In this document: in pieces, positions 2 through 56,875 of the stretch | Layout: every line of letters begins with the position of its first letter | Position numbering within the stretch: the first letter of the stretch is position 1 | Assembly: GCA_029688905.1 (NCBI GenBank) | Contig: JARULB010000001.1 | Location: 1 to 64,000, forward strand | Source: Balneolales bacterium ANBcel1 | GTDB lineage: Bacteria > Bacteroidota > Rhodothermia > Balneolales > Natronogracilivirgulaceae | Length of the DNA stretch: 64,000 bases | Reading direction: 5' to 3' | Program-made: the position numbers and the translations under genes | Notes under the pieces: model-generated | The model's input: only the letters and a program-made list of their open reading frames with translations | Databases searched by the model: none | What the model was told of the DNA's origin: nothing

Positions 2-1066
2 CAGACAGTATCCGGAACATTCGGGGTGCTCTCCTACTTTATCGGCGCTGTCTTTGGTAACATCACACTGCTCTATTTCGGAGTATTTCTGGTGTTCTTC
101 TTTTCGGTGATCCCCCCTTTCTTCGTTAAGGAGCCAAAGTATCTGGGGCGCTACGGGGAGGATGAACAAGACATCGCCCGTGAAATTGACGGCAAGGAAG
201 CGTCGCCGCAAAGTGTGAATCAGGCATCCCTGTATCAGATCTTGTTCAGTATCCGGCCGTTGTGGGGTTTTCTCATGTACGGGATTTACGCCATCATCAA
301 ACGGCTGAGCGGTCTGGAATTTCCGGGGTATTACTTCGAAATGTTTGCTCTGGTCATCACCATATACCTCATCGGAGAGGCGCTGTTTCGGTCGGAGGAC
401 GGGAAGACCGGAGAGGAGGCCGGAAAGATCGGGTTCCAGAAAGTACTTGCGGCACATTCGTTCTCCTGGATTGCCGCTCAGAGCATGTTCATCTACTTTT
501 TTGCGTTTGTCGACTACCGGCTGCCGGGCCTATCCGACGAGGGGGTGGGTTCGGTTGTGAACTGGAGCTTTTTCTCGCTCAACCTGGTAGCGGCAATTAT
601 ACCGGTTCTGATACTGGGTCCGCTTGCCAACCGTTACGGGCGGGTCAGGGTTCATGCAAGTGCCCTGGCGGTCATGGCTGCGGGATACGCGCTGATCGCG
701 TTTCTCGGACAGTCACCCTATGTGTTTTATCTGCTGATGGCGGTTGTGGGCATCGGGTGGGCCTCCATCATCAGTTTGCCGTTTGCAATCATGTCCCAGA
801 AAATAAACCAGGGGCAGATGGGTCTGTACATGGGACTGTTCAACCTGTCGGTCGTTCTGCCACAGCTGGTTTCCAGTTTTGCCGTCGGCGATATCGTACA
901 GGCCGTGGACAACAAATCGATCCTGATGATCATCTGCTCGGTAACCGTGGCCTTTTCTGCAGCCGCATGGTATCTGGTGAAGGAACCCAAAGACGAAATG
1001 ACCGAGAACCCGGCTCTGCTCGATGAAGAACTGGAGAAAAAAGCGGAAAGTGGTGAAAACCCGTAA
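2..1066 (+). CDS. MFS transporter, 3' part (SLC45/sugar-type)
   Basis: The reading frame is open from the left edge, so the N-terminal half is missing; an internal GTG at 26 is not a credible start. The visible 355 residues hold several hydrophobic membrane segments, a polar cytoplasmic loop (about residues 45-75 of the visible part) and a charged C-terminal tail rich in Glu and Lys. The loop sequence GPLANRYGRVRVHA is the inter-helix basic loop typical of the major facilitator superfamily. The long central loop and the overall look resemble the SLC45/sugar-proton symporter type of MFS, so a sugar or related solute is a reasonable guess, not a demonstrated substrate. The gene ends at a strong hairpin terminator. 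Confidence 0.75.
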   Translation, partial: QTVSGTFGVLSYFIGAVFGNITLLYFGVFLVFFFSVIPPFFVKEPKYLGRYGEDEQDIAREIDGKEASPQSVNQASLYQILFSIRPLWGFLMYGIYAIIKRLSGLEFPGYYFEMFALVITIYLIGEALFRSEDGKTGEEAGKIGFQKVLAAHSFSWIAAQSMFIYFFAFVDYRLPGLSDEGVGSVVNWSFFSLNLVAAIIPVLILGPLANRYGRVRVHASALAVMAAGYALIAFLGQSPYVFYLLMAVVGIGWASIISLPFAIMSQKINQGQMGLYMGLFNLSVVLPQLVSSFAVGDIVQAVDNKSILMIICSVTVAFSAAAWYLVKEPKDEMTENPALLDEELEKKAESGENP

Positions 1067-1068
1067 AT

Positions 1069-1115
1069 AAAAAAAGAAGTCCGGGCCGCTCTCACGACAC
1101 CGGACTTTCTTTTTC
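1069..1115. terminator. Bidirectional intrinsic terminator
   Basis: An A-rich arm ending in gtccgg is followed 14 bases later by ccggac and a T-rich arm. The arms pair over about 13 bases, with a T run on the plus strand and an A run upstream. It lies just after the MFS stop and 75 bases from the convergent glutamine synthetase stop, so it can serve both strands. Confidence 0.8.
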
Positions 1116-1189
1116 CTCCTGTTGCGTCAAGAAGTATCGTTGGTTTCGCTGCGGGAACACCTCCCGCAGTGTGACCAAATTCGCTGCGC

Positions 1190-3385
<2,196 letters not shown>

Positions 3386-3627: not shown

Positions 3628-4506
3628 ATGAATTTTTCTGTCTGGATAGAAGCGGCACGCCTTCGTACCCTTCCGGCTTCACTCGTTCCTGTAATGACCG
3701 GTGGGGCCCTGGCCTGGCAACACGGACTTTTTAACGGATGGATTACCTCCGTCGCACTGTTTTCCGCCATCCTGATTCAGGTTGCCACCAACTTCGCCAA
3801 CGACTATTTCGATTTCCTGAAAGGTGCCGATAACGACGAACGCGTGGGTTTCACCAGAGCCTCTTCCACCGGAGCCGTCGCCCCCCGTACCATGCTTGCC
3901 GCCGCTTTTGTCTCTTTTCTGATGGCGTTTCTGCTGGGACTTATTCTGGTCTCACATGCCGGGTGGCCCATCCTGGCCATCGGCCTGCTTTCTATTGCCG
4001 CGGGAGTGCTTTATACCGGCGGACCCTTTCCGCTTGCCTATAACGGCCTGGGAGATGTGTTCGTTTTTCTGTTTTTCGGCCTGGCAGCGGTTATGGGAAC
4101 CTATTATGTAAACACTCTTGAGTGGTCTGCCGAATCCTTTTGGGCCGCTGTTGCCGTGGGGGCTCTCTCCACCATGATCCTGGTCGCAAACAACTACCGG
4201 GACGTCGATACCGATCGCAAAGTAAATAAACGAACCCTGGCCGTGCTGCTTGGAGAACGTTTCTCTCGCTGGCAGTTTCTCGTTCTTATGATGCTCGCTT
4301 TTTCCATCCCCCCGCATTTTTATTTCCGGGAATCCTACCCCCTCGTTATTCTGCTTCCCATGATCCTCCTGCCATGGGGCGTTCTCCTGGTACGTGCATT
4401 CTGGCGGGAAACCGACAAGGCCGTCTTTAACGGCATACTTGTGAATACGGCCCGACTGATGACGGCCTTCGGCCTTCTTTTTGCAACGGGTATCGTCCTT
4501 TCGTAG
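3628..4506 (+). CDS. menA: 1,4-dihydroxy-2-naphthoate polyprenyltransferase
   Basis: Membrane prenyltransferase that joins a polyprenyl diphosphate to 1,4-dihydroxy-2-naphthoate to form demethylmenaquinone. It is a UbiA-family protein of 292 aa with eight or nine hydrophobic segments. The first Asp-rich motif is visible as NDYFDFLKGADNDER and the second as NNYRDVDTDRKVNKRTLAV, the MenA-specific form of the UbiA signatures. The N terminus begins with FSVWIEAARLRTLPASLVPV, typical of MenA. First gene of a menA-menC-menE run on the plus strand, with 35 bp before menC, so an operon is likely. Confidence 0.95.
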   Translation: MNFSVWIEAARLRTLPASLVPVMTGGALAWQHGLFNGWITSVALFSAILIQVATNFANDYFDFLKGADNDERVGFTRASSTGAVAPRTMLAAAFVSFLMAFLLGLILVSHAGWPILAIGLLSIAAGVLYTGGPFPLAYNGLGDVFVFLFFGLAAVMGTYYVNTLEWSAESFWAAVAVGALSTMILVANNYRDVDTDRKVNKRTLAVLLGERFSRWQFLVLMMLAFSIPPHFYFRESYPLVILLPMILLPWGVLLVRAFWRETDKAVFNGILVNTARLMTAFGLLFATGIVLS

Positions 4507-41583: not shown

Positions 41584-41859
41584 AATCTCAGTAACGTTTC
41601 TGGTGGAAAACGGCATGGCGCCCTGGCTGTCGCCCCATCCGCTGCACATCAGGACAAGAACCCCTCAGCCAGACAACATATTCATTGGATATAGACACCG
41701 TCTATTGCAAGATAAACATTATCATAATAATTTAAATAACTTCTTTATTTGCACATGAATTGCCATGATTGCGCCCCAATCAACCCCATCCATCCCTCAA
41801 GCGCCTCGTGCGGTTCGCCGGTCGGAAATCTTTTGTGCTGGCTTGGTGAACTTGATGAA
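41584..41859. other. Region upstream of oxyR and the repeat array, no gene seen
   Basis: The first ~160 bases are the oxyR leader/promoter region with an AT-rich stretch at 41708-41750. The rest, up to the first repeat, has no gene I would support; short open frames lack family resemblance. Confidence 0.4.
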
Positions 41860-42213
41860 ATGATCATGACCGGGCTGGCATCAGGACACACAGGCACATG
41901 ACTAAAACCGGTCATGGAATTGCACGTGTCCATGTAATCAAAAATTTAAAATGCTGAACCGACGGTTACGAAGTGCTATGATCATGACCGGGCTGGCATC
42001 AGGACACACAGGCGCATGACTAAAACCGGTCATGGAATTGCACGTGTCCATGTAATCAAAAATTTAAAATGCTGAACCGACGGTTACGAAGTGCTATGAT
42101 CATGACCGGGCTGGCATCAGGACACACAGGCACATGACTAAAACCGGTCATGGAATTGCACGTGTCCATGTAATCTAAATTTTTAAAAGATGAACCGAAG
42201 ATCACGAAGTGCA
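41860..42213 (+). repeat. Tandem array of three 118-bp noncoding units
   Basis: Units start at 41860, 41978 and 42096, with an exact period of 118. Units 1 and 2 differ by one base (A/G near the middle). Unit 3 is the same for about 78 bases, then diverges. No protein-coding potential is evident across units. Each unit holds two interleaved complementary pairs, catgaccgg/ccggtcatg and ggacac/gtgtcc, plus a local catgac/gtcatg hairpin with an eight-base loop. Each unit ends in an aatc-aaaattt-type tail. A fourth copy is at 56741-56830 on the other strand. Lies between oxyR (minus) and the MFS gene (plus). Confidence 0.95.
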
Positions 42214-42440
42214 ATCAAATTTTTTAAACAGATGAAACACCTTGTTTTTCGTATTGCGATATTTCAGCCGGGCACCTAAACTATGGCGGTTATGTCGGCA
42301 CAGAAGCCGCCACAGCTTACAGAAGTCCGCTGTTCGAACCCTGCTGATCCCGGGAGCGCATTGGTAACAGCCATTATCAAACATAAAGCCACAGCACCAT
42401 TCCAAAGAAAATTGTCATACTGCTTGCCAGTACACTGACG
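42214..42440. other. Leader region between repeat array and MFS gene
   Basis: It starts with another copy of the AT-rich tail (aatcaaattttttaaa then tgaaac at about 42213-42238), then unremarkable sequence. From about 42387 the frame is open and encodes residues that look like the missing start of the downstream transporter. Confidence 0.5.
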
Positions 42441-56384: not shown

Positions 56385-56740
56385 GGTTCAGCGTAACATC
56401 GGGGATCGGAAAGGAGTGCAGACAATCTGCGCATCCATCCCTGAATATACAAAAAACGAACCGGGTGAAAGCTGATTAATCCCCTGCCGTGAAAACCGGA
56501 ACCCGGGCTGCATCCGGCACGCCGATACAGTCCGCAATACCCTCAAACCCGGCCGGACCGCTTCGGGACAAAACCTGAAATCAGCCTGCCGGCAGGTGCC
56601 ATCATTCGACCGCAACTAATATCTGACTCTCACGTAATATCCGGCCAGTATTTATTTGCACCAAGTCTCCTAAAATAATTTTTAAATTAACAGCCGTGTA
56701 TTCCGCAAGCATGTACTGCACCCGGTTTCATGGGTTTAAA
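56385..56740. other. Upstream region of FemAB-like gene, no gene seen
   Basis: The region holds the promoter of the minus-strand FemAB-like gene. An AT-rich stretch lies at about 56650-56690. I see no gene worth calling. Confidence 0.4.
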
Positions 56741-56830
56741 AATTTTGATTACCTGGACACCTGCAATTCCATGACCGGTTTTAATCATGCGCCTTTGTGC
56801 CCTGGCGCCGGCCCGGTCATGTTCATAGCA
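56741..56830 (-). repeat. Dispersed fourth copy of the 118-bp repeat element
   Basis: Read on the minus strand, this matches the 41860-42213 units at about 80 of 90 bases, without gaps, from tgctatga at one end to aatcaaaa at the other. The arms catgaccgg (56821 down to 56813) and ccggtcatg (56778 down to 56770) are unchanged. The second arm is gggcac (56802 down to 56797), which still pairs with gtgtcc (56760 down to 56755) through a G-U. The local hairpin changes catgac to catgat, again keeping a U-G pair. Lies in a divergent spacer, pointing toward the FemAB/FkbM genes. Confidence 0.92.
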
Positions 56831-56875
56831 TTTATTTGAAACCCCAGTTTATCCTAATCCTGAAGAGGTAATATC

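Follow-up and report, generated by a model that had tools for sequence, protein, structure and literature searches.

Insertion sequences of the IS200/IS605 group insert 3' of a fixed short motif, which is needed at both of their ends, and their loss restores the target exactly. The ends of these elements fold as single strands with an extrahelical base, and a short internal guide pairs with the cleavage site. In the genome of Balneolales bacterium ANBcel1 we analyzed a short repeat that resembles them in apparently inserting 3' of a fixed short target (ATGAA), in showing this motif at both ends and in having asymmetric ends without terminal inverted repeats; its putative cut topology at ATGAA and its proposed guide pairing would follow the same logic. 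It differs from them in that no transposase partner was found in its own genome or in most carrier relatives, in having a single guide just 3' of a long hairpin rather than one for each hairpin foot, in the canonical 8-bp pairing of this guide, and in a target that appears to be a start codon, with the element itself supplying a new start.

The repeat shares with REP sequences and their TnpA-REP (RAYT) partners a short, multicopy, intergenic and foldable nature and possibly mobilization in trans, but it lacks the GT[AG]G foot, spans 100 nt instead of 20-40 nt, lies in one orientation relative to genes, forms head-to-tail stacks and does not flank Y1 genes. It is small and non-autonomous with direct repeats at both ends like the MITEs of DDE-type transposons, but unlike these it is devoid of terminal inverted repeats and its direct repeat is always ATGAA rather than variable. 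Integron attC sites are imperfect hairpins recombined as single strands; the repeat is likewise an imperfect hairpin found in head-to-tail arrays, but no GTT/AAC (RYYYAAC/GTTRRRY) boxes were apparent in its alignments and no cassettes were found. Group I and group II introns are set apart from it by its length of about 100 nt and by the absence of any Rfam hit to their catalytic core. The broad kind, small non-autonomous mobile elements, is already known; the arrangement of target and guide is new in that, to our knowledge, it belongs to no described family. We propose, with a probability of roughly 0.7, that the repeat is a non-autonomous mobile element of about 95-105 bp, which inserts directly 3' of ATGAA under the direction of a guide and restores the gene start.

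The window array and its family

The initial annotation of the window, which is the entire 64-kb stretch of DNA analyzed here, had described three tandem 118-bp units, the first two differing at one base, between oxyR and an MFS gene, together with a fourth copy of about 90 bp on the opposite strand. All of this was recovered. TRF reported a single array in the window (41860-42212, period 118, 3.0 copies), in which unit 2 is one base apart from unit 1 (99% identity) and unit 3 is 93% identical to unit 1, the query; one flanking gene encodes a LysR-type regulator resembling OxyR in sequence, the other an MFS transporter. The fourth copy was matched at 56735-56826 on the minus strand (87% identity over 92 bp, E=3.8e-26) and placed by the covariance model at 56727-56831; on the window this model finds exactly four copies, namely the three array units and this one (Table 1). 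The period of 118 bp was upheld, but not as the natural unit: it combines a core of about 92 bp with a mini-hairpin module of 26-27 bp, and the real unit is about 100 bp, running from one ATGAA to the next. Counted from ATGAA to ATGAA the whole array spans 41855-42236, and its period arose when one element was amplified locally along with its mini-hairpin module. An open reading frame beginning at the conserved ATGATTA upstream was considered and rejected; the frame drifts between copies, in agreement with the earlier view that no ORF is conserved among them. Altered right ends are seen in every window copy (units 1 and 2, ATGCTGAA; unit 3, AAAAGATGAA; copy 4, CCCATGAA), and no gene start lies behind the array or copy 4, where the frames have the lengths listed in Table 1. 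All four window copies look like old, partly decayed relics.

Table 1. Features of the array and of the fourth copy in the window
Feature	Position	Strand	Basis
Left junction ATGAA (target side)	41855-41859	+	Sequence; model R1 starts here
Array unit 1: core 41860-41950 and mini-hairpin module 41951-41977 (ATGCTGAACCGACGGTTACGAAGTGCT)	41860-41977	+	TRF, search, model
Unit 1, P1 5' arm CATGACCGG	41865-41873	+	Covariation
Unit 1, P1 3' arm CCGGTCATG	41908-41916	+	Covariation
Array unit 2	41978-42095	+	TRF; single-base difference from unit 1
Array unit 3 core; terminal ATGAA at 42190-42194	42096-42194	+	Sequence, search, model
Mini-hairpin module CCGAAGATCACGAAGTGC with GAA-loop hairpins	42195-42212	+	Sequence; module nearly always element-associated
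A/T-rich tail and array right junction AAACAG-ATGAA; 15-codon frame only	42213-42236	+	Sequence
Fourth copy, single element; right end CCC-ATGAA, 14-codon frame; left neighbor ATGCT, not ATGAA	56727-56831	-	Sequence, search, model

The mini-hairpin modules, present in the window at 41951-41977, 42069-42095 and 42195-42212, recur at many related loci with GAA or GTAA loops (ACC-GAA-GGT, CAC-GAA-GTG or CGC-GAA-GCG, CGC-GTAA-GCG) and are situated between elements or within the loop of helix P4, which is described below. An element is no more than 150 bp away in 59 of 62 cases; of the three strays, two have the form ATGAA-module-tail-ATGAA, or a similar tail, without the outer stem P1.

Searches beyond the window sustained the earlier suggestion of a dispersed noncoding family that goes beyond local duplication, with far more than four copies in the genome and abundant matches in relatives. 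The unit of about 100 bp, the ATGAA junctions, the mobility and the apparent start-codon targeting are additions to that earlier picture. One unit as query gave 34 matches in its own genome, 29 of them with E below 1e-4, and covariance model R1 gave 47 across its 3.3 Mb at E<=1, with 40 still retained at E<=1.3e-4. Of 60 relatives searched, 17 gave matches; 19 of the 60 belong to the same family, and these account for 16 of the 17. When 85,000 species genomes were scanned with a pattern, the hits were almost exclusively metagenome genomes of Balneolales, many bearing names of alkaline-lake type sediments, in addition to Bacteroidales/Paludibacteraceae and a few stray matches. Models R1 and R2 detected the family in at least 17 of 395 sampled Bacteroidota genomes (E<=1e-4) and 13 of 171 genera; such prevalences are lower bounds, because the large-sample scans scored about ten candidates per genome under strict filters. 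In ten divergent carrier genomes the copy number ranges from 3 to 74. These matches point to a large family scattered over Bacteroidota lineages. A copy at position 4187 of locus L159 is on a contig labeled Candidatus Cloacimonadota from the same sediment project, representing either cross-phylum transfer or a binning error. Rfam yielded no relevant match for the window, five Balneolales/Bacteroidales loci and 14 divergent loci, and the family was without a match in plasmids, phages and viral contigs. No description was encountered in the open papers searched, and the family is apparently undescribed so far.

Borders, empty sites and gene starts

When copies are oriented alike, each unit of about 100 bp begins after one ATGAA and ends in AAACA[C/G]ATGAA. 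Among 186 full copies the motif is present at the left in 123 and at the right in 180; the left neighbors other than ATGAA are mostly the mini-hairpin module, ATGAACCGAAGGTCACGAAGTGCT. With elements masked, comparison of orthologous genes uncovered empty sites in four pairs (L155/L076, L146/L149, L038 or L123/L162, and L157/L124). For example, the gene at the empty locus L149 begins with ...TTTACATATATTGTATTCCC-ATGAA-ACGATTC, and the occupied locus L146 has a similar upstream stretch, ...TTTTACATATATTACTCCTGCC-ATGAA, after which come the element and ATGAA-ACGATTC. This pair retains a recognizable common upstream flank; the upstream flanks of the other three have diverged too far for alignment at the level of bases. 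Furthermore, genomes G148, G005 and G226 contain full-length identical or near-identical copies at unrelated places (e.g. L292/L293, L252/L253, L259/L260 and L281/L282), in which identity stops at the ATGAA borders and flanks are unrelated save where another element adjoins. Empty sites and identical copies at unrelated loci show that the element is mobile and is inserted immediately behind ATGAA, and the compared sites show that insertion leaves an ATGAA on both ends. Local tandem duplication and gene conversion, without active mobility, would account for the amplification of the window array with its 99% identical units, but for the family as a whole this is contradicted by the dispersed identical copies, the precise ATGAA borders and the empty sites, and we regard it as wholly improbable.

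In head-to-tail stacks, neighboring elements, often of different subtypes, have a common ATGAA, and 56 of 171 copies with a left ATGAA are directly behind another element. One subtype of G005, ATGAAATACCCATGGCGGCTTACCG... (L252, L253, L259, L260 and others), is almost always in this position, as if it preferred the ends of elements. Upstream of singleton targets no CAS preference was seen (16 of 115, about the expectation from base composition). An autonomous parent with the same left end was also considered and rejected: throughout the loci examined untruncated left ends lead into a normal right half, with the truncated copy L027 as the exception.

Of 127 ATGAA motifs that terminate a stack, 80 open an ORF of at least 60 aa, versus 27% for all other ATGAA in the same DNA. 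The terminal copies that open an ORF number 12 of 13 in G148, 6 of 7 in G326, 11 of 14 in G005 and 6 of 11 in G226. These frames show that, in most of the genomes with recent activity, an occupied ATGAA usually comprises the start codon and second codon of a gene. The gene retains a start, provided by the element's right-hand ATGAA, as well as its upstream region, and would gain a structured leader of about 100 nt with an A-rich initiation region. The bias could stem from directed insertion, or from insertion at any ATGAA and selection removing the harmful events; the data fit either. Judged by N-terminal sequence only, the downstream genes appear functionally unrelated (argC-, lpxB-, fabG-, ndk- and rlmH-like genes and a fluoride channel). 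In the element's own genome two near-identical rlmH-like genes (93% DNA identity) at L005 (C5:372685) and L021 (C2:421743) are each preceded by two different stacked elements.

Covarying helices and a putative internal guide

The element contains an outer stem (P1), a hairpin within it (P2) and a helix (P4) in which an internal guide pairs with the right end. Their joint covariation score of 0.358 exceeds that of shuffled alignments (0.123, with none of 500 as high) and of slid ones (at most 0.095), showing that P1, P2 and P4 are maintained by compensatory changes. These helices were tested explicitly in place of RNAalifold, which predicted zero pairs from the mixed MAFFT alignment, probably due to subtypes being shifted by one base. 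An H-type pseudoknot (GGNCAC/GTGNCC) was rejected, its covariation not rising above shuffles. Copies at L072, L148 and L330, from some Bacteroidales and other distant hosts, possess an additional hairpin (TCTCCC...CGGGACAGGC) that separates P1 from the guide.

In P4 the guide TTCAT[C/G]TG, with one bulged base, is paired with the right end CA[G/C]ATGAA. At the middle pair of this helix, 76 Balneolales copies combine C with CAG and 59 combine G with CAC; 20 others are mismatched. In 118 of 180 Balneolales and 24 of 55 other copies the guide matches the final eight bases (CASATGAA) as an exact reverse complement with one extra base, the position of which varies by subtype; no copy has the match without the extra base. 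Shuffled sequences yield such a match with one bulge in 0.5% and 0.1%, versus the 66% and 44% observed, the exact match being missing in the remaining 34% of Balneolales copies and 56% of the others. Pairing between guide and target is invariant at ATGAA and is therefore unprovable by covariation. We infer that pairing of the guide with ATGAA may be the targeting principle, as in the single-strand transposition of IS200/IS605.

The conserved structure ends at the start codon, and RNA folding (mean z of about -2.2) predicts a paired AUG (0.78 vs 0.61 in the control). These features would also suit an ancient cis-regulatory leader RNA, akin to a riboswitch or thermosensor, spread by duplication and recombination with mobility as an incidental property, as would the recurrence, by N-terminal sequence, of some gene types with the element in distant hosts (argC-like at L224/L226, cobalamin adenosyltransferase-like at L007/L128, and rlmH-like at L005/L021 and L112). 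We consider such an origin unlikely. Identical copies at unrelated loci, empty sites and different subtypes stacked head-to-tail with a common ATGAA speak against it; at least a third of the copies are away from gene starts, and the downstream genes form no functional class. Moreover, the covarying helices contain few G-T wobbles (5 of about 289 paired cells), unlike typical RNA; this scarcity is slightly more in line with single-stranded DNA than with RNA, although it is suggestive only.

Candidate mobilizers and implications

Single-strand guide-directed insertion appears to be the likeliest mechanism. Base pairing between the guide and ATGAA in single-stranded DNA (or RNA) would identify the target, and an enzyme supplied in trans would cut 3' of ATGAA at both ends, such that the left ATGAA would stay in the flank and the right one would belong to the element. 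Following insertion, P4 could make the start codon inaccessible in the mRNA of the downstream gene and so modulate its translation.

The topology of this scheme, with a cut 3' of a short motif, guide pairing and an extrahelical base, is that of IS200/IS605, and the elements could accordingly be REP-like sequences moved in trans, as folded single strands, by a Y1 HUH transposase of the TnpA-REP/IS200 type. Y1 genes are indeed found in nine of ten tested carriers outside the window's genus, and the orphan subclass 1.2 signature YxxxQxxHH is found in several carriers, though not in G000; subclass 1.2 has been reported from Bacteroidetes and Cyanobacteria without known ends and with an unknown role (PMC6006769). 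The same study also notes 'atypical secondary structures' next to Y1 genes of subclass 2.6 in Bacteroidetes; the element was not alongside the Y1 loci retrieved, a few of which show a 2.6-like motif. Against a Y1 enzyme stands its absence from the element's own genome with about 47 copies, from 14 of 20 genomes of its family, including most relatives with the element, and from G218 with 12 copies. Where Y1 genes exist they are not flanked by the element (the nearest copies being a pair within 0.3 kb in L330 and one about 1 kb off in L344), the GT[AG]G foot is absent, and the IS200 of the recently active G005 sits at TTAAT rather than ATGAA. We find mobilization by Y1 rather unlikely on these grounds.

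The sense orientation at start codons, along with reverse transcriptases in the own genome and in six of ten tested carriers, would be compatible with insertion at the RNA level, whereby a transcript reverse-splices into the ATGAA of an mRNA and a resident reverse transcriptase copies the product to DNA. We hold this to be very unlikely: the element has neither the catalytic core of a known self-splicing intron nor an Rfam match, RVT_1 is absent from four of the ten carriers despite their copies (G178 with 21, G126 with 3, G183 with 3 and G218 with 12), and the reverse transcriptase fragment of L168, fused with an IS30-like transposase frame, is a remnant. In this ORF (727-2163, minus strand) the start of a group II intron-type reverse transcriptase runs into the transposase, probably by an insertion fusion. 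A second reverse-transcriptase protein at L169 (3-1277, plus strand; 424 aa, cut by the contig end) is unlike the group II intron protein and is possibly a defence reverse transcriptase. Y1 transposases, IS200 and reverse transcriptases were all set aside as mobilizers, being absent from some of the carriers, unflanked by the element or directed at another target.

Returning to guide-directed insertion of a non-autonomous element, a more far-reaching version, which we advance tentatively and at somewhat less than even odds, is that these are nucleic-acid-guided elements found across Bacteroidota, whose guide pairs with ATGAA, which regenerate the start codon and rewire leaders while leaving genes unbroken, and whose mobilizer is an enzyme that has yet to be connected with a transposon. 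By inserting at a start codon and supplying a new start, the element would avoid the usual cost of insertion and could alter the leaders of a large number of genes, among them some with housekeeping roles. If the target is set by the guide, the element would constitute a natural, very small system for DNA insertion guided by base pairing. For genome annotation, these repeats may flag true start codons and unrecognized leaders in many Bacteroidota.
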